Shown here one piece after another: positions 31,508-43,101 of a stretch of 44,697 bases of DNA. Below the pieces are notes generated by a model. It did not search any database and had not been told where the DNA came from. It saw only the letters and a list, made by a program, of their open reading frames with translations. Both the position numbers and the translations under genes were made by a program. Position 1 is the first letter of the stretch. The number at the start of each line of letters is the position of its first letter. This DNA is from a virus: positions 1 through 44,697 of IMG/VR virus record IMGVR_UViG_3300020411_001693; one strand, 5' to 3'.

Positions 31508-32092
31508 TAGCCAACTTCTATATTTTGTGCGATCTATCTTCATGAATGGTAAGTACTTTCTGATCTTCATACCAACTGATCTCCAAACAGGGTCGTCTAG
31601 TTTCTTATCAAACTCATCACAGAAGTTGAACAGTCTTTCGTAGATACACATGTTCTCTACACTAAACCTACCAGCAAGATGTTCTTTTAGTAATGGTGGA
31701 TGACCCTCTGAGGTGTCAAATAAATCGTCAATCTTATATGTCTCAAGTAATGTATTAGTCTGAGACTTGAAGTCATAGAACAAACTCTCTGATCTCCTCA
31801 TCCAATCTTTATATACTACCTCTCCTGATCTGATTATATTTCCTATCCACACACCCTCAGGGTTATCTGTCGCTACAAAGTTAGCAAGGAAGAAATTATG
31901 TATCTCATTGTCCTTATACTTCCTTGATGTTTTCTCAAAGAAATATCGATCCTTCCTCTTGTAGAATGATTCTATCTTTGCTTTCGATCTACCACCATAC
32001 TTATGGTAGTCATACTTCTCTCTCGTAAAGTGGTTCTTGAATGCAAGATACTGTTTATAAGTATCAAACGGTGTCATAGGTCTCTTCAGCAT
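31493..32092 (-). CDS. gp59: replicative helicase loader gp59 (199 aa)
   Basis: The segment RKDRYFFEKTSRKYKDNEIH, then NFFLANFVATDNPEGVWIG, corresponds closely to T4 gp59 (KRRDKYFFQKLSEKYK... ISNLVANQDAWIG). MTPFDTYKQYLAFKNHF at the start and DDPVWRSVGMKIRKYL near the end also fit. gp59 loads gp41 helicase onto gp32-coated DNA. Size is close to T4 gp59 (217 aa). The start overlaps the upstream radical SAM gene by 29 bp. Confidence 0.85.
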   Translation of the reverse strand: MLKRPMTPFDTYKQYLAFKNHFTREKYDYHKYGGRSKAKIESFYKRKDRYFFEKTSRKYKDNEIHNFFLANFVATDNPEGVWIGNIIRSGEVVYKDWMRRSESLFYDFKSQTNTLLETYKIDDLFDTSEGHPPLLKEHLAGRFSVENMCIYERLFNFCDEFDKKLDDPVWRSVGMKIRKYLPFMKIDRTKYRSWLLTCG

Positions 32093-33140
32093 ACATCGGT
32101 ACGTTTTTCTTCATTGTAGCATCTAATTGCTGCGTTGCAGTAAACCAAACTGGATTACGTGGACACATCGTACAAATGTCATGAGGTTTCAACACCTCAT
32201 CAAATGATTTCCTTATGTTTTCTTCGGTATCATTTATGCTTGTGGGTTTATAGTCAAGGTACTTCTTCCATGCTGGATCATCTACCTGATCTGTAGCATG
32301 CAAAGACTCTCTGAGATATGATATCATAGGGCACTTCCATAGATGTCCATTGTATAACTGACTGTTAGGGCAAGAGCAATGCTTGAAACTCTCTTCAGGA
32401 TCACCCTCCTCGAAAGGATAGTACTTTATACTATCATCATTCATCTCATACTTGACAATGTCAAACCACTGTCTTGGTTTACCATCAAGTAATCTAAATG
32501 CTTCACTAAACTCTAGCAAGTTCTCTGTGTCCACACCTCTGGACTTGAGATACCTCACAAACTTTGCTGCGTTCTCCCAGTTGACAGATCCTTGTGGTGT
32601 GTACCATGGTTTGTGGAAGGTAAGTCTAAACACTACACCTTTCAACATCTCATCAGCAATCCATTCTTGTTCCTGTATTAGTCTAGATCCATTGCTGAAT
32701 AGTTTTATATTACATTTCTGTCCTGTTGCTTCTGCCACTTCTCTTGTGACTGTGACAACTTCTTTAGTCCTTGGTTCTAGTAATGGTTCACCACCTATGA
32801 TACTGATGTGACTCCACACATGTATCTTTGGTAGTATGTTCTTTATATCTTCTTTTAGTGCATCAATATCTACCCTACTGTTCACACCCAACAGACTACT
32901 GTTATGATTACATGCTCTGCATGCTAGGTTGCACCCATTGATAACATGTATGCTGAGTAACCTAGTGGTAGGTCTCTCCTTTTCTAGTTCTACAATCTCT
33001 TCTGGAGTGCACTGTCTGAAATTACTTATCCAAAAACCACGTTGTTCTCTCACGTAGTCGACACTAACCGCTACCTCTCTGAGTCTTTCCTCAGGTAATT
33101 GGTTGTGGATCTTTCCAAATGTCCACTCCTTGATCTTCAT
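32064..33140 (-). CDS. radical SAM enzyme 1 (358 aa)
   Basis: The [4Fe-4S] motif CNLACRAC (C70, C74, C77) is followed by the SAM-binding GGEP at 116-119. The C-terminal part has extra cysteines in HCSCPNSQLYNGHLWKCP (C255, C257, C270) and CTMC (C323, C326), a SPASM/twitch-like arrangement for additional clusters. The same C-terminal motif occurs in radical SAM enzyme 2, so the two are paralogues. The gene is placed between gp33 and gp59 with TAATG coupling to gp33. The substrate is unknown; SPASM-type enzymes often modify peptides. Confidence 0.85.
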   Translation of the reverse strand: MKIKEWTFGKIHNQLPEERLREVAVSVDYVREQRGFWISNFRQCTPEEIVELEKERPTTRLLSIHVINGCNLACRACNHNSSLLGVNSRVDIDALKEDIKNILPKIHVWSHISIIGGEPLLEPRTKEVVTVTREVAEATGQKCNIKLFSNGSRLIQEQEWIADEMLKGVVFRLTFHKPWYTPQGSVNWENAAKFVRYLKSRGVDTENLLEFSEAFRLLDGKPRQWFDIVKYEMNDDSIKYYPFEEGDPEESFKHCSCPNSQLYNGHLWKCPMISYLRESLHATDQVDDPAWKKYLDYKPTSINDTEENIRKSFDEVLKPHDICTMCPRNPVWFTATQQLDATMKKNVPMYAEETYDTV

Positions 33141-35075: not shown

Positions 35076-35936
35076 TTATTTATAGGTATTAATTACCTTC
35101 CTCTGTGTCTTCTCTTGTTGAGCAGCACTAAAGTGAAGAGGTTTTGCTGTACACATTCTGCATACATTATCAGGTAGTATAGATCCCTCACAAAACTTTG
35201 TCAACTCATCATCAGCACAGTCAACAGAGACACCATCAACATAATATTCCTGCCACTCTGGATCATCACGTTGACCTGTTACGTCCAACATCTCCCTGAG
35301 AAATGCAGTGTTCGGACATTTCCACAACTTACCATTATATAATTGTGAGTTAGGACATGAACAATATTTGAAACTCTTATCAGGTTTCTCATGGTTGTAT
35401 GGATATACTTTATCTCCTCTCTTCTTTATACTATAGAACCACCTGTCCTTATTAGTATGATGTTCTGTTGCTCTAATCTTCCACGTCTGATTGGGAGCAG
35501 GACCTATGAACAATTCATGATCTGTCTTAGCAACAAAGTCTCTTACTGTTTTTATTATCTTGGCACCACGTTCTGTAGTCTCTGGTAAATGAAAACTAAA
35601 TCTCAGATATACTTTAGGGTGGTCAAGGTATTTGTATATCCAATCATTACTTTCTAATAGTTCACCATTAGTATAAAGATACACATCATTACTAGCATGC
35701 TCTAGACATGTAGTAAATATCTCCTCGCATCTAGGATTCAAGAGTGGTTCACCACCTATCACTGATACTCTATTGATATCTACTCTTGGTAAGATAGTCT
35801 TTATATCATACAGAAGTTTATCTGTATCTAACTTACTGCCTGGTGCAAAGTAATTACTAAAATGATTGCAACCTTTACATGATAGGTTGCAACCAATGGC
35901 AGAACTAACGTCAAGTATGTTGAGTCTAGGTTTCAT
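35076..35936 (-). CDS. radical SAM enzyme 2 (286 aa)
   Basis: CNLSCKGC (C16, C20, C23) binds the radical [4Fe-4S] cluster, followed by SVIGGEPLLNP (GGEP 61-64). The C-terminal YCSCPNSQLYNGKLWKCP (C192, C194, C207) and CRMC (C259, C262) match the same motifs in radical SAM enzyme 1, showing paralogy. It overlaps the carbamoyltransferase N-half gene by 11 bp, so the two proteins are made together and may act on one product. The substrate is unknown. Confidence 0.85.
   Translation of the reverse strand: MKPRLNILDVSSAIGCNLSCKGCNHFSNYFAPGSKLDTDKLLYDIKTILPRVDINRVSVIGGEPLLNPRCEEIFTTCLEHASNDVYLYTNGELLESNDWIYKYLDHPKVYLRFSFHLPETTERGAKIIKTVRDFVAKTDHELFIGPAPNQTWKIRATEHHTNKDRWFYSIKKRGDKVYPYNHEKPDKSFKYCSCPNSQLYNGKLWKCPNTAFLREMLDVTGQRDDPEWQEYYVDGVSVDCADDELTKFCEGSILPDNVCRMCTAKPLHFSAAQQEKTQRKVINTYK
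35077..35084 (-). promoter_or_regulatory. T4-type late promoter (TATAAATA)
   Basis: An exact TATAAATA on the minus strand, 19 bp before the ATG at 35058 and overlapping the stop of radical SAM gene 2. It would drive the FmdB-like gene, phoH and the nuclease. Confidence 0.65.
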
Positions 35937-36735
35937 TATATGCTAGGTATGCTGCACCCATTGCAGTGCCACCATCATGAGCAACAGGTTCGACATAGAA
36001 ATTTATATGAGGGTACATCTTTTGTATCTTATAGTTAGCAACACAGTTCAAGAAGCAACCACCTGACAAACATACATCTCCTGTTGTCATTTCTATTAGT
36101 TCTCTGTATCTTCTCTCCCATCTCTTTTGTATGGTAGAAGCAGGGTCATGATTGTATGCACTCAGACCCATGACCTTCCCTGCATCTCTGTAGTCCCATT
36201 CATATGTCTTAGCAGTCTCTTCAAATAATCTACCAATACCTACGAACTCAGGTGAGAAGTATCTCTTGTGTGTCTCTACGAATGTGGGTGCTACGAAAAT
36301 AGATTCTATCTCTAGTCCTTCGCTTGTCTTAGAACCATTAGAGTCTACAACCACACAAGATGCTTCAGTAAACCCAGAGTTATAGAAAGCACATGCAGCA
36401 TGAGTTAGATGATGCATAGATCTATAGTCATACAGTCTAGCGTTAGGATATTTCTTTTTTATATTTGATATGTCTTTTATATTATCTAATCTCTTATCAC
36501 CTTGAGTCCAGAATGAGTCAGTCAAGGCTACGTGTTCAATTCCTTCTGGTAGATATGGTAACAAGGAACTGACCTTATGATCCCACTTGTTCCTTGTTAC
36601 TCTTTCTGACTCCAGATATAATTTTGGTTTACCATACTCCAATAAACATACCGACCCGTTGTTTGATAGGTTGAACCCTACAACCCATTTTTTTGCCGGA
36701 GTTTTTTTTCCAGTTTCTGGTAAACTAAAAGTCAT
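35926..36735 (-). CDS. carbamoyltransferase N-terminal (Kae1-like) half, copy 1 (269 aa)
   Basis: NodU/CmcH-family N-domain: GFNLSNNGSVCLLEYG, then HHLTHAACAFYNSGF (His108, His109, His112), VVVDSNGSKTSEGLEIES, GKVMGLSAY, LSGGCFLNCVANYKI and AHDGGTAMGAA. This ASKHA-type domain transfers the carbamoyl group from carbamoyl-adenylate to the acceptor. The C-domain is missing from this ORF and is encoded just upstream as a separate gene (4-bp overlap). The first 16 residues (MTFSLPETGKKTPAKK) are an extension lying within the 65-bp repeat shared with 28596-28660. Confidence 0.85.
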   Translation of the reverse strand: MTFSLPETGKKTPAKKWVVGFNLSNNGSVCLLEYGKPKLYLESERVTRNKWDHKVSSLLPYLPEGIEHVALTDSFWTQGDKRLDNIKDISNIKKKYPNARLYDYRSMHHLTHAACAFYNSGFTEASCVVVDSNGSKTSEGLEIESIFVAPTFVETHKRYFSPEFVGIGRLFEETAKTYEWDYRDAGKVMGLSAYNHDPASTIQKRWERRYRELIEMTTGDVCLSGGCFLNCVANYKIQKMYPHINFYVEPVAHDGGTAMGAAYLAYNET

Positions 36736-36750
36736 TTTTGCCTGAGCTTA
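36686..36750 (-). repeat. 65-bp repeat copy B (spans the carbamoyltransferase gene junction)
   Basis: 51 of 65 positions match the intergenic copy A at 28596-28660. Here it covers the last codons of the C-half gene and the first 17 codons of the N-half gene. Confidence 0.65.
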
Positions 36751-37331
36751 TGCACCTCAGGGAAGTAAAGATAATCTATTGCACTATCCTCAAAGGTTTT
36801 GATTGCATCCTCAGGTGTCTCCACTAGAGGTTCTCCTGCCATGTTGAATGATGTGTTGAATAGCATAGGCACATCAGTAATCTGATAGAAAGCATCAATC
36901 AATTGATAGTAATTTAGATTGTCTTTCATGTCAACAGTTTGTACTCTACAAGTCTTGTCTATGTGTAGTACCGCAGGGATTTTATCATGTGTATGTGGTA
37001 AAGCATCCACAGCATACATCATGTACGGAGACTCTACAAGTCCTGCCATGTCAAACCACTTGTGTGCATGAGGTAGTAGTACACTGCCAGCGAATGGTCT
37101 GAAGGACTCTCTTCTTTTGATTAAATTAATCTTGTCTTTACCTTCAGGGTCTCTTGGATCATACAAGATAGATCTATTACCTAGTGCTCTAGGTCCTGCT
37201 TCTGACCGTCCTTGAAAGATGGCAACGCTATTTCTATCCGCCAAAAGTTCTGCTACTTGGTGGGAAGTAACGGTGTCACCTTCTATATCTTGAAGGTCGT
37301 AAATAGGTCCTAAGTAAAGTGTTTCAATCAT
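36732..37331 (-). CDS. carbamoyltransferase C-terminal (YrdC-like) half (199 aa)
   Basis: The segments GRSEAGPRALGNRSILYDPR (41-60), then KINLIKRRESFRPFAGSVL, ILHIDKTCRVQTV-like residues and VPMLFNTSFNMAGEPLVETP are diagnostic for the C-domain of NodU/CmcH/TobZ carbamoyltransferases. That domain binds carbamoyl phosphate and ATP and forms carbamoyl-adenylate. In bacteria it is fused C-terminally to the N-domain; here it is a separate protein encoded 5' of N-half copy 1, the reverse of the usual order. Confidence 0.85.
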   Translation of the reverse strand: MIETLYLGPIYDLQDIEGDTVTSHQVAELLADRNSVAIFQGRSEAGPRALGNRSILYDPRDPEGKDKINLIKRRESFRPFAGSVLLPHAHKWFDMAGLVESPYMMYAVDALPHTHDKIPAVLHIDKTCRVQTVDMKDNLNYYQLIDAFYQITDVPMLFNTSFNMAGEPLVETPEDAIKTFEDSAIDYLYFPEVHKLRQK

Positions 37332-37539
37332 CGTGGTCGTCCCAAGGGTCTGCTAGTTCTTTGTTATCAAAGAAGGATTTATACAGACCGTACCCTGAGA
37401 GGAGTACTAATATTACAAGGACTGAGATGCCAAAAGTAATGTTTGGATTCAATGTCAAGTGAGGAATCAATGGTTCCTTACAGTTCAATTCCCATGTACC
37501 AGGTAAAAAATACACTGGTGGGCAAGATAAAAATGTCAT
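37324..37539 (-). CDS. single-pass membrane protein (71 aa), unknown
   Basis: ATG 37539 overlaps the upstream stop as ATGA. The protein has one membrane helix (ITFGISVLVILVLLSGYGLY) at about residues 35-54 and an acidic tail ending DPWDDHDD. The N-terminal part contains two cysteines. It lies inside the carbamoyltransferase cluster and overlaps the C-half gene by 8 bp. No family is recognised. Confidence 0.55.
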   Translation of the reverse strand: MTFLSCPPVYFLPGTWELNCKEPLIPHLTLNPNITFGISVLVILVLLSGYGLYKSFFDNKELADPWDDHDD

Positions 37540-38036
37540 ACTATCCAATTTGGTTTTCTGGATGGGTCACGTAGATAATTAGATGCAACCCAAGGTTTGC
37601 TGCTAATGTAATTCTTGTAAGCAGTAAAAGTGTCAATGCTTGTGTCATGTTTAAACTCATCGGGCATTGCACGGGTAAAGGACGTGGGTGGTGGGCAGTC
37701 GTCAAAGATAATATCAGCACACTCTATTGTGTACTGACAACTATGAGTCTTGTTGTATCTATGTGTGTATTCTGCACACAATGCTAGACCATGTTCAATC
37801 AACCATCTGTAGTTAGTCTGTGCCCAGATAGTACATGGATGATTACGGAAAGCACCCTTGTCTGTTTTGTATGGTGAACCATCTACCTTAGGTAGTATGC
37901 CAAATCCATGACCCCACTTGTCTGACGCTACGATAGAGAGCATTTGACATGTCTCTAGTGGCATCTTGACTATGTGTTTGTCGGGTAAAACTTGAGCAGA
38001 CTTGACAGGTGATGGATCAGTTACAAAAATGTTCAT
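37536..38036 (-). CDS. conserved phage protein of unknown function (166 aa)
   Basis: It starts MNIFVTDPSPVKSAQVLPDK, then HIVKMPLETCQMLSIVAS, with NHPCTIWAQTNYRWLIEHGL, ALCAEYTHRYNKTHSC and FTRAMPDEFKHD further on. I know similar proteins from many T4-like phages and some bacteria but no proven activity. The conserved Asp, His (DKHIVKM) and Glu residues could form an active site. ATG 38036 is preferred over TTG 38045. It overlaps the second N-half gene by 20 bp. Confidence 0.65.
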   Translation of the reverse strand: MNIFVTDPSPVKSAQVLPDKHIVKMPLETCQMLSIVASDKWGHGFGILPKVDGSPYKTDKGAFRNHPCTIWAQTNYRWLIEHGLALCAEYTHRYNKTHSCQYTIECADIIFDDCPPPTSFTRAMPDEFKHDTSIDTFTAYKNYISSKPWVASNYLRDPSRKPNWIV

Positions 38037-39072
38037 AATATGCAAGTAACGCTGAACCTATTGCTAGACCACCATCATAAGAAAGTGGGTCAGCATATAG
38101 ATTTACATCTACATTCTTTATGATAGCGTAGTTTGCTACACAATTCAAGAAAAAACCACCAGTTACACACACATTCTTATTATTTGTTAGGTTTATTGCC
38201 ATCGCTACCATGTATATTGCATGTCTTTCTGCTGATTTCTGTAGATTATATGCTAGGTCTATTGGTTCTTGGTTACCATAGTATCCTGTGCTATCCTCCT
38301 TGGCATATAATTCTTTGCTACAAAAACTATGACCATACTCCTCTTTGAATAGATCAACACGTTTAGATCCATATCCTGTACGTTCCAATCCATATGCTGA
38401 CAGTCCCATCGTCTTCCCTGCATCTAACTCATCAAACCCACACTCTCTTGAGACCCTTCTGTATGCCTGTCCAACGCTAGTCCTATCACTATAGAGTATG
38501 AATCCATCAGTATTCTCACTGTGACAGTCCTCACCCTCCCAGAACAGTAACTCTGTGTTCATTGATTCCCAATATGGTTTCTCTATCTTTCTACATTCTT
38601 CTTCACTCCAGAACGTAGAGTAATGTTTGAAGACAGGATTCTCATTGTCAAATATACTTTCTATCTCACAGAATCTACGTTCATTATGATCATGAACTGA
38701 TCCCTTACCATCCATTACTAAGACAGCACAGTCATCAAATGGTGATCCGTAACGTGCGTTAGCAGCATGACACTCATGATGTCTCTGTCTGTAATCTAGT
38801 ATCGGTATCTTCTTATCTCTTATGACTTTACAAACTGCTTCCTTCTCCTTAGTTCTCTGTAAAAACTTCTTAGGATAATACTTTGTATAACAATCACATA
38901 TAGCAACAGCATCTACTCCATCAAGGTATTTCTCTACCAAAAATTTTGCACCACGATCCCTCTTGATTCTACTGAGTCTTTCTTCTTCAAGATAAAACTC
39001 AACCTCACCGTCATTTATGATAGCAAGAGAACCATTCTTGGATAAATTTATTCCTGCAATCCGTGTTCCCAT
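38017..39072 (-). CDS. carbamoyltransferase N-terminal (Kae1-like) half, copy 2 (351 aa)
   Basis: The same domain type as copy 1 but clearly diverged: RIAGINLSKNGSLAIINDGE, HHECHAANARYGSPFDDCAV (His98, His99, His102), VMDGKGS, GKTMGLSAYGLERTG, VTGGFFLNCVANYAI and SYDGGLAIGSA. It is about 80 residues longer, with an insertion in the middle (about residues 150-190). No C-domain follows, so it must share the separate C-half or act without it. The start overlaps thyX by 25 bp. Confidence 0.85.
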   Translation of the reverse strand: MGTRIAGINLSKNGSLAIINDGEVEFYLEEERLSRIKRDRGAKFLVEKYLDGVDAVAICDCYTKYYPKKFLQRTKEKEAVCKVIRDKKIPILDYRQRHHECHAANARYGSPFDDCAVLVMDGKGSVHDHNERRFCEIESIFDNENPVFKHYSTFWSEEECRKIEKPYWESMNTELLFWEGEDCHSENTDGFILYSDRTSVGQAYRRVSRECGFDELDAGKTMGLSAYGLERTGYGSKRVDLFKEEYGHSFCSKELYAKEDSTGYYGNQEPIDLAYNLQKSAERHAIYMVAMAINLTNNKNVCVTGGFFLNCVANYAIIKNVDVNLYADPLSYDGGLAIGSALLAYYEHFCN

Positions 39073-39695
39073 CCTAGTGCCTCTGCAACGGCAGGGAATT
39101 GTCCTGCAAAAATACAGGCACAGTTCCTAGCGATCTCCATGTGTTCCTTTTGAGTACCGTGTGCAGATCTTAAATTTATGTAGTGTATCCAAGACCGACA
39201 TGACCCTGTCATGTAAAGTTTTGTAGGTGTTGCTAGTGGTAAGACAAACCTTGCACACTCCTTCGCAACACCCTCCTCTAGCATCTGATGATACAATGCC
39301 TCTGCTGAACTGAACAAAGTTTTTATCTGCAATTCTAACTTCTGTTTTACAAACTCATCCAAGTCATCAGTAGAGTTCTGACGATTCTTTTCGTCCTGTC
39401 TTCTGAGATCTGGTATAGGAATCTCTCCTAGATGATCAGTGCTTGCATAGCGTTGACTGAACTCTTGGAATGTAAATGATCTATGTCTTAGTATCTGTGC
39501 AGCGATAGCACGAGTTGTCTCTATCTCTAGAGTCATGGTCGCTTGCTCAAATACTGACCAGTGATTGTGCTTGATACAATACTTCAGTAAACCAGCGTAC
39601 TTCTCGTTCTCCTGATTGTTAGGGTTAGATACTCTGGCAATGTATGCCATCATCTTCTCAGCATCAGGAGTGATGGTTACTAACTTGACGTTCAT
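39048..39695 (-). CDS. thyX: FAD-dependent thymidylate synthase ThyX (215 aa)
   Basis: The ThyX signature RHRSFTFQEFSQRY is present, followed by GEIPIPDLR and, near the end, MTGSCRSWIHYINLRSAHGT then QKEHMEIARN. ThyX methylates dUMP to dTMP using methylene-THF and FADH2, supplying dTTP for phage replication. It is common in cyanophages. The ATG overlaps the stop of the 50-aa ORF (ATGA). Confidence 0.9.
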   Translation of the reverse strand: MNVKLVTITPDAEKMMAYIARVSNPNNQENEKYAGLLKYCIKHNHWSVFEQATMTLEIETTRAIAAQILRHRSFTFQEFSQRYASTDHLGEIPIPDLRRQDEKNRQNSTDDLDEFVKQKLELQIKTLFSSAEALYHQMLEEGVAKECARFVLPLATPTKLYMTGSCRSWIHYINLRSAHGTQKEHMEIARNCACIFAGQFPAVAEALGWEHGLQE

Positions 39696-40332: not shown

Positions 40333-40361
40333 ATGCTAACATACCACCCATATTTAGTCAA
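40333..40361 (-). promoter_or_regulatory. sigma-70 early promoter of the secreted peptide/DUF4278 unit
   Basis: TTGACT (40361-40356), a 17-bp spacer and TAGCAT (40338-40333) on the minus strand. ACTAAATA, a late-type motif, overlaps the -35 (40351-40358). Confidence 0.5.
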
Positions 40362-41484
40362 CCCCTTTAGTATCAACGGATACATTTTTTCTTTTGACAC
40401 CACAGTAATCCGAACAGATGTGGGGTCTCTTATCCCATGACTCTACAAGTGTACACTGGAATAATGGCGTGTTCAATATCTCTTCAAGTGAATTATGTTT
40501 TAAAGATAAAGATTTCAACCCACCCTGATTCTCTATGAGTGGAATCATACTATCGTAGAACACCTTCTGCATATACTCAGCACCCACACCTTTATTAGGA
40601 TTCTTTATGTCCCTGTAGATAGCAGGGGAATCTATATCACCATGGATATAGTAGTCAGGATAGAAGAAGCGTAGTCTACTCTGGTGGAAGCAGCAAGCAT
40701 GAACAATACCACGACTGTCTATCCTAAGTTGACCAGGACTCTTGATACCATGACCATACCTACAATCAATCTCTGTATCCTCTGCTGCGGGTGGCTGCTG
40801 GAACACATGACCATCAACACCCTCTAGTTTATGTACCACTCCCCTGTATTCATATGTAAATGTACCATCTCCCTTACCACTAGCATCATATAGATCGTTT
40901 ACATTAGTATGTCTGAAGTCTTTGAACCCCATCAGTCTACTAAGATTTCTACATCGTTTGATTTGATGTTGGTTGTGTTTGAATACTAGCATCCTCCAGA
41001 CAGCAGGACCTCCTGCCTTTATAAATGCTCTAGCACTGTCTATAACTTTATTATAATCTACACCTACTCTGTACTGTTGTAGAGTATCTGACAAACCATC
41101 TATGGAAAAGATAAGAAAACTATCTCTGTGTGATGATGCCATGAGAGCACCTAGTCTACCCCAGAACTCTTGGTCTCGTGTACCACCATTGGTACTCATC
41201 TGGAAGACTATACTACTGTTAGCGTTGAGAGTGTAAGAATATATGTCTAACAAATCCTCATTCAATGAGGGTTCACCGAATGATCCTTGAAAATATATCA
41301 GTTCTGTCTTTCTAAGAGTCTCAATAGGAAACCATCTCTTCCAATCAGCGAGTGATATGGAAGAGCGATTCATAGATGGGTCTGGTTTCAAGACCGCTAC
41401 CTCATCATTGTATGAGGTCTTGTGTCTAGCACATAAAGGACACTTGGAGTTGCAATGATCTGTTAGATCAATTAGGAACTTCAC
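40354..41484 (-). CDS. radical SAM enzyme 3, SPASM-type (376 aa)
   Basis: CNSKCPLC (C11, C15, C18) lies right at the N-terminus, followed by IYFQGSFGEPSLNEDLL (GEP SAM motif). The C-terminal half contains CRYGHGIKSPGQLRIDSRG, then IVHACCFH, and further CTLVESW and ICSDYCG, a SPASM-like auxiliary cluster region. It differs from the other two radical SAM proteins and is not their close paralogue. Translation starts at GTG 41484, overlapping the upstream stop (GTGA). The substrate is unknown; the family often modifies peptides. Confidence 0.8.
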   Translation of the reverse strand: MKFLIDLTDHCNSKCPLCARHKTSYNDEVAVLKPDPSMNRSSISLADWKRWFPIETLRKTELIYFQGSFGEPSLNEDLLDIYSYTLNANSSIVFQMSTNGGTRDQEFWGRLGALMASSHRDSFLIFSIDGLSDTLQQYRVGVDYNKVIDSARAFIKAGGPAVWRMLVFKHNQHQIKRCRNLSRLMGFKDFRHTNVNDLYDASGKGDGTFTYEYRGVVHKLEGVDGHVFQQPPAAEDTEIDCRYGHGIKSPGQLRIDSRGIVHACCFHQSRLRFFYPDYYIHGDIDSPAIYRDIKNPNKGVGAEYMQKVFYDSMIPLIENQGGLKSLSLKHNSLEEILNTPLFQCTLVESWDKRPHICSDYCGVKRKNVSVDTKGVD

Positions 41485-42277: not shown

Positions 42278-42514
42278 TCAGATCATCTTTAGTCTTTGGA
42301 GATGATGTAGTGTGTCTTTGCATCCGCCTATGTGTTTGTTATCAATTTGAACTTGTGGAAAGGTAGCACCCTCCTCAAACTCCTCATAAAACTGGCGACG
42401 AGTAAAGTCTTTGTCCAGTTTGTACTCTAGGTATTCTATCTTGACAGCAGCAAAGAGTTGTCTGACTCTTTCGCACCATTGACAGTTATCTCTAGACCAT
42501 AGAACTGCTTTCAT
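42278..42514 (-). CDS. glutaredoxin (78 aa)
   Basis: A short thioredoxin-fold protein with the redox motif CQWC (C11, C14), the cis-proline segment TFPQVQID (P53) and the glutathione-site IGGCKD (G63, G64). Phage glutaredoxins usually donate electrons to ribonucleotide reductase. The ATG overlaps the stop of the upstream oxygenase gene (ATGA). Confidence 0.85.
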   Translation of the reverse strand: MKAVLWSRDNCQWCERVRQLFAAVKIEYLEYKLDKDFTRRQFYEEFEEGATFPQVQIDNKHIGGCKDTLHHLQRLKMI

Positions 42515-43101
42515 GAATTTTTCAGTATTTTTGGGTCAATGAATTTACGCTCGAAACGTTTACTCAATTGTACTATGTTTCCTGCAACAACAAACCTGTC
42601 ATTGCCTTCTTCCATCTTATCAACACCATGTGGTGCATAGGATGGATAAAATATTATATCATTTGTTCTCTGTGTTTCGGGATATACTTTCTGATCTCCT
42701 AACATAAAGTAGAAGCACTTTTGTTTCGGAACATCAACGAAATGCACCCATGAAACCAGTTGACTAGGATGTTTATAATGATTATGAACATCAATAACCG
42801 CACTGAGTTCCCTTGTATATAGTTGACCCCAAATGCTGTCGTAACTGAATATAGATTCACTATTATACAATCCAATTTTTTGTAGAACTTCCTTCAGTTT
42901 TGGTATGTAGATCTGAAGTAGTTCTTTATCTACAAAGTTACCATCCACTGTGTTAGCAGTGTTGTTAGGATTCCTATGGTAACCTGTGTAATGTTGACCC
43001 CAATCAGGATCACCCTTCAAAAAGTAAGGGTTTCTGTATTTCTTCTTCAAATTTTTGACAGTACTATCCGTCAGGACAAACTGTTCCGTCCATAATATCA
43101 T
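42511..43101 (-). CDS. 2OG-Fe(II) oxygenase (196 aa)
   Basis: The beta-helix core has DVHNHYKHPSQLVSWVHFVD (H106, H108), then CFYFMLGDQ and DIIFYPSYAPHGVDK (H158) and DRFVVAGNI (R169). This is the HxH/D...H...R arrangement seen in cyanophage oxygenases. It is translationally coupled to glutaredoxin. The substrate is unknown. Confidence 0.7.
   Translation of the reverse strand: MILWTEQFVLTDSTVKNLKKKYRNPYFLKGDPDWGQHYTGYHRNPNNTANTVDGNFVDKELLQIYIPKLKEVLQKIGLYNSESIFSYDSIWGQLYTRELSAVIDVHNHYKHPSQLVSWVHFVDVPKQKCFYFMLGDQKVYPETQRTNDIIFYPSYAPHGVDKMEEGNDRFVVAGNIVQLSKRFERKFIDPKILKNS

Follow-up and report, generated by a model that had tools for sequence, protein, structure and literature searches.

The virus record IMGVR_UViG_3300020411_001693, analysed here over its whole length (44,697 bases; hereafter the window), encodes the two domain types of a class III (TobZ/NodU-type) carbamoyltransferase in three separate genes, namely one YrdC-like half (C) and two Kae1-like halves (N1 and N2). 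The chances are about even that these genes form a split and reordered class III enzyme in which C feeds both N1 and N2, the two transferase halves having different acceptor chemistry. The class III carbamoyltransferases known so far consist of one chain each, in which an internal channel links the two sites. Within the family, the YrdC-like domain produces carbamoyl adenosine monophosphate (carbamoyl-AMP), from which the Kae1-like domain passes the carbamoyl group on (PMC9654439). A psbA fragment, gp32, gp59, phoH, baseplate gp53, a late-transcription coactivator and thyX mark the window as part of the genome of a T4-like cyanophage, a marine cyanobacterial virus. The features that carry the argument are:

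36732..37331, minus strand: C subunit, a stand-alone YrdC-like (Carbam_trans_C) half and predicted carbamoyl-AMP synthetase (PF16861, E 3.4e-61)
35926..36735, minus strand: N1, a short Kae1-like half of 269 amino acids (PF02543 Carbam_trans_N, E 9e-15)
38017..39072, minus strand: N2, a longer Kae1-like half of 351 amino acids (PF02543, E 1.9e-20)
36661..36663, minus strand: codon for Asn25 of N1, the counterpart of TobZ His14 and GdmN His27
39037..39039, minus strand: codon for Lys12 of N2, the counterpart of the same two residues

On the transcribed minus strand the genes follow each other in one overlapping string, thyX, N2, Pyr_excise, psbN, C, N1 and the radical S-adenosylmethionine (SAM) gene rSAM1, with overlaps of 4 nucleotides between C and N1 and 11 between N1 and rSAM1. 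The open reading frames named in the preliminary description of this DNA were found at precisely its coordinates, all on the minus strand; the overlap it gives for N1 with the radical SAM gene is real, and the families of C, N1, N2 and that gene were borne out by Pfam. The resemblance to TobZ, GdmN, NovN, VtdB and NodU lies in the HxxxH...D...D metal site of the Kae1-like halves and in the GPRALGNRS, KxR and NTSFN motifs of the YrdC-like half, and both PF02543 and PF16861 scored above cut-off. In those enzymes, however, one chain carries the Kae1-like and then the YrdC-like domain, whereas the window has separate genes in the order N2...C-N1 and a second Kae1-like gene.

All three subunits appear intact. 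The motifs GPRALGNRS, KxRExFRPFA, HxDxTCRxQT and NTSFN of C are retained in 71 split copies; the YrdC-like catalytic motif KxR...SxN, read as KRR and SFN in the window, is conserved in 71 copies as well, and C can be aligned with the YrdC-like domains of VtdB and GdmN. The metal ligands are H108, H112, D131 and D254 in N1 and H98, H102, D121 and D333 in N2. Together with the motifs GKxMG and GGxxLNCxxN, these ligands were found in 74 of 74 N1 sequences and, apart from truncated rows, in 49 of 49 N2 sequences; the loss of metal or adenosine triphosphate (ATP) site residues from N2, which the preliminary description had named as fatal to its idea of one activating half serving two acceptor halves, was not seen on alignment, and the idea was not refuted by this test. 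AlphaFold (AF2) models of N1 and N2 reached predicted local distance difference test (pLDDT) values of 92.0 and 88.4, had TobZ as best PDB match and ranked TobZ, GdmN and VtdB ahead of Kae1/TsaD, with template-modelling (TM) scores of 0.58-0.74 (by query length) that support a fold assignment only. Purifying selection was evident from median ratios of nonsynonymous to synonymous substitution (dN/dS) of 0.15 for N1, 0.18 for N2 and 0.21 for C, obtained by a simple counting method with saturated pairs excluded.

The two N-halves depart from the known enzymes on the acceptor side. The position of TobZ His14, which GdmN His27 shares, was placed for TobZ by profile alignment and with the crystal entry of the H14N variant, whose Asn aligned with Asn25 of N1; Lys12 is the aligned residue of N2. 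Class III enzymes have a catalytic His here, whereas N1 has Asn (65 sequences) or Glu (9, in which a His follows the Glu) and never His, and among 47 N2 sequences there are 33 with Lys and 14 with His. His occupied the position in 58 of 58 fused phage enzymes with sequence there, in all six other split or extra N-halves (four located after C and two extra ones) and, within a GHNAS motif, in the 5-hydroxymethylcytosine (5hmC) carbamoyltransferase described with MetaGPA. The general-base His of class III O-carbamoyltransferases is thus missing from both N-halves of the window, and the GdmN variant H27N is inactive (PMC9633730). Judged from these alignments, the replacement of the His in N1 and N2 is a new observation relative to the known enzymes. 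N1 is also shorter by about 70 residues between the GKxMG and QxxWE helices; by alignment, the missing stretch is where GdmN has loop 4' (residues 238-246), through which the acceptor is bound across the dimer. N2 had been singled out as the diverged half; it is a genuine second N-half, but N1 is the more deviant of the two because its catalytic His is replaced and the acceptor-side insert is absent.

IMG/VR was scanned with N2, rSAM1, C and N1 as queries, as were phage records; the loci were annotated by BLAST and duplicates were removed. This search for phages with the same gene set, suggested in the preliminary description, recovered stand-alone C and N1 in 76 distinct viral loci, the window included, with N2 present in 48 of the 76. 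An assembly or frameshift artefact was ruled out as the cause of the split by this recurrence. Besides the arrangement of the window, N2-Pyr_excise-psbN-C-N1-rSAM1, the loci showed N2-C-N1-rSAM1, C-N1-rSAM1 without N2 though thyX was in place (12 loci, including the single-cell virus AG-345-D19), and N2-C-N1 without rSAM1, where an SGNH-like gene took its place in the one locus fully read. From these variants C and N1 emerge as the invariant core, N2 and rSAM1 as frequent partners and psbN and Pyr_excise as passengers. N1 was present in every intact split locus, and no intact locus combined C and N2 without it; N2 is dispensable, whereas N1 always accompanies C. Since most viral contigs are fragments, it is uncertain, except at loci with both flanks, whether N2 or a fused copy is truly missing. 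The annotated phage records held no true N2, their best matches being at most 34% identical, and C used as query against bacterial and archaeal genomes had three matches only.

Trees built from the N-halves placed N1 and N2 in one clade each (bootstrap 100 each) and joined the two against the fused and other split forms with branch support of 97/95, and of 98 in a second tree; the C tree was more poorly resolved. As sister clades, N1 and N2 go back to a duplication that took place in the split lineage, and N2 was probably lost in some lines. The proposed set of one activating half and two Kae1-like halves, all intact, is supported; its genes are conserved together, and N1 and rSAM1 are tightly linked.

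In the proposed mechanism, C would convert carbamoyl phosphate and ATP to carbamoyl-AMP, which would be passed to both N1 and N2, each predicted to bind metal and carbamoyl-AMP. N2 would act as the more conventional transferase, with His or Lys as base, and N1 might carbamoylate a different, possibly non-hydroxyl acceptor, or an acceptor presented by a partner protein. A different acceptor for N1 appears most likely because N1 has neither the usual base nor the acceptor-side insert; as the halves keep the donor side but diverge in the acceptor-activating residue and the insert, different acceptors or chemistries are the most economical explanation. Only tentatively proposed is a viral three-subunit machine with one carbamoyl-AMP synthetase for both diverged transferases, one of them working without the His on a non-hydroxyl acceptor that is linked to a radical SAM enzyme.

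The nature of the acceptors is suggested by the surroundings of related enzymes. The fused enzymes of P-SSM2, S-SSM7 and Sf-FS3 adjoin genes for nucleotidyltransferase, carbohydrate kinase, phosphoheptose isomerase and epimerase, in sugar-nucleotide cassettes that lie near tail fibres in P-SSM2 and S-SSM7; the cassette of Sf-FS3 is similar. A second carbamoyltransferase, compact and fused (about 460 amino acids; L184:5322-6701, on a 192 kb relative of locus L077; also in L185 and L186) adjoins baseplate gp25, GDSL/SGNH-like, radical SAM and glycosyltransferase-like genes, possibly another tailoring cluster in the virion region. The SGNH-like protein that follows N1 in locus L020 belongs to the same family as that of the 192 kb relative (34% identity), a label that goes by the look of the motifs and a single weak GDSL match. 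Sugars or small molecules are therefore favoured, and by this analogy the acceptors are most likely of that kind rather than DNA.

Some points weigh against two acceptors fed by one activator. N1 might be catalytically dead; three larger relatives also encode a complete fused enzyme elsewhere, and the split module therefore need not cover all carbamoylation; and sugar acceptors are suggested by distant fused paralogues, not by the split locus. On a reading that is possible, if on the unlikely side, N1 and N2 form one heteromeric transferase resembling TsaD/TsaB, in which N2 would be catalytic towards a single acceptor, N1 structural or regulatory, and C the counterpart of TsaC. Such a division of labour would agree with the Asn or Glu of N1 at a position where Asn kills GdmN, with its missing insert, and with GdmN taking a loop from the partner monomer, by which partner subunits in the family can build an acceptor site; TsaB is likewise a shortened TsaD paralogue (PMC9654439), and the distance matrices of N1 and N2 correlate more closely (r=0.87) than those of thyX and phoH (0.64; 25 loci, uncorrected for shared ancestry). 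However, the C-lobe of TsaB supports neither nucleotide nor metal binding, whereas N1 retains its four metal ligands and the nucleotide motifs in all 74 sequences, and the 12 thyX-bearing loci with C and N1 alone make N1 the indispensable and N2 the optional partner. The same conservation, with a dN/dS of 0.15 and the constant presence of N1 in intact split loci, makes quite improbable a reading of N1 as a redundant or decaying duplicate in which the relevant carbamoylation falls to N2 with C, or to a fused enzyme elsewhere, even though N1 evolves faster (mean distance 0.41 versus 0.33 for N2 and 0.31 for C) and compact fused enzymes of about 460 amino acids occur in the three larger relatives.

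Modification of DNA bases, as by the 5hmC enzyme, with thyX supplying the modified nucleotide, is very improbable. It would account for thyX as conserved upstream neighbour in most loci and for the co-occurrence of thymidylate synthase and carbamoyltransferase on cytosine-modified phage contigs (PMC8670742). Those contigs, however, carry PF00303 enzymes, to which ThyX is unrelated, and PF00303 was not found in seven relatives, one of 192 kb and most of them genome fragments. Furthermore, the residues at TobZ positions 421 and 423 distinguish modified contigs from unmodified ones; all 71 split copies and all 60 fused ones have G and R there, against C and T in the 5hmC enzyme, to which the identity is 29%. 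The 5hmC idea was dropped as the leading one on these signature residues and the lack of PF00303; a nucleic-acid acceptor, among the options listed in the preliminary description, is thus disfavoured in its best-known form. The MetaGPA enzyme shares with the module its phage origin, its class and its location near a thymidylate synthase, but it is fused and needs a hydroxymethylated base, for which these phages show no gene. That rSAM1 builds or carries an acceptor which N1 carbamoylates, a special case compatible with two different acceptors, is unlikely: rSAM1 directly follows 103 of 109 N1 genes (a count that includes redundant, overlapping loci from the same contig) and overlaps N1 in the window, yet four loci with readable downstream sequence lack it, three of them sharing a 569-nucleotide gap with an SGNH-like protein there (one read), and the rSAM1 allele was swapped independently of N1 in L008-L014 (64% versus 96-99% identity).

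Among other known systems, the nearest fused relatives are the "Nol-like carbamoyltransferases" of cyanophages (phrog_1601; P-SSM2, S-SSM7, S-CAM8), whose C-half is at most 64% identical; they differ in being fused, in keeping the catalytic His and, in several cases, in lying within sugar-nucleotide cassettes near tail fibres. The cultured cyanophages S-RIM44, Sf-CH3, Sf-FP1 and S-SCSM1 have split pairs at the same site after thyX and with C likewise preceding N, but with one N-half per C (two pairs in S-SCSM1), outside the N1 and N2 clade and with the His kept. S-SSM7 and Sf-FS3 combine a fused enzyme with an extra stand-alone N-half bearing the metal ligands, comparable to the extra N-domain of the module, but in another arrangement and clade and with the His. 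These split pairs and extra N-halves are annotated as carbamoyltransferase or Nol only, and the PHROGs family phrog_20469 is a 181-residue C-half. Searches of the open-access literature yielded no account of phage carbamoyltransferase halves that are split or duplicated; the pairs present in cultured cyanophages seem to have gone undescribed. In a 2010 comparison of cyanomyoviruses the carbamoyltransferase genes measured 1.5-1.8 kb, the size of fused forms (PMC3037559). TsaC with TsaD/TsaB, which makes N6-threonylcarbamoyladenosine (t6A), likewise has separate activating and transfer subunits and duplicated Kae1-type subunits, but C belongs to PF16861 and not to TsaC (PF01300 14.6 bits, cut-off 25.1), and N1 and N2 both keep the metal site that one t6A paralogue, TsaB, lacks. 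HypF has acylphosphatase and zinc-finger domains, for which the module gave no Pfam matches.

If true, the natural splitting of the enzyme and the duplication of its transfer subunits would offer a simple system for carbamoyl-AMP hand-over between proteins and allow a test of whether a single activator serves several acceptors, and N1, as a natural Asn variant of the His essential in GdmN, would probe the role of that residue. The family evidence also bears on claims of phage pyrimidine metabolism, in which a phage carbamoyltransferase was called pyrBI/aspartate carbamoyltransferase or the first step of pyrimidine synthesis (PMC10436341; PMC9146016); the gene of S-MS29 matches the Carbam_trans (TobZ/NodU) type.

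The remaining members of the string are:

35076..35936, minus strand: rSAM1, a radical SAM protein (PF04055 Radical_SAM, E 1.5e-9)
37324..37548, minus strand: PsbN homologue, a passenger (PF02468, E 6e-10; phrog_8051)
37536..38045, minus strand: Pyr_excise-family protein, a passenger (PF03013, E 3.3e-18; phrog_624)
39048..39695, minus strand: thyX, the upstream neighbour, probably outside the mechanism (PF02511, E 3.6e-48)

The "membrane peptide" and the "conserved unknown" protein previously noted between the halves do lie there and are now identified as the PsbN homologue and the Pyr_excise-family protein; their inclusion in the module did not hold, as many loci lack both. A common N-half/Pyr_excise arrangement with denV of S-SSM7 was ruled out, since the two proteins show no similarity. 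The alleles of the psbN homologue, located inside the carbamoyltransferase string, have diverged (42-97% identity among close relatives). rSAM1 has the motif CX3CX2C and extra C-terminal cysteines, and a search of NCBIfam assigned it to no specific subfamily. Two more radical SAM genes lie nearby (32064-33140 and 40354-41484); the first of these, rSAM2, is duplicated in L029 and L096 and is a paralogue of rSAM1 (35% identity, common C-terminal motif CSCPNSQLYNG). In L008-L014, rSAM1 is only 64% identical to that of the window and most neighbours are 90-100% identical, the allele having been exchanged as a unit, which points to recombination. Two 2-oxoglutarate-Fe(II) oxygenase-like genes with weak Pfam matches were also observed in the window, at 2026-2892 and 42511-43101.

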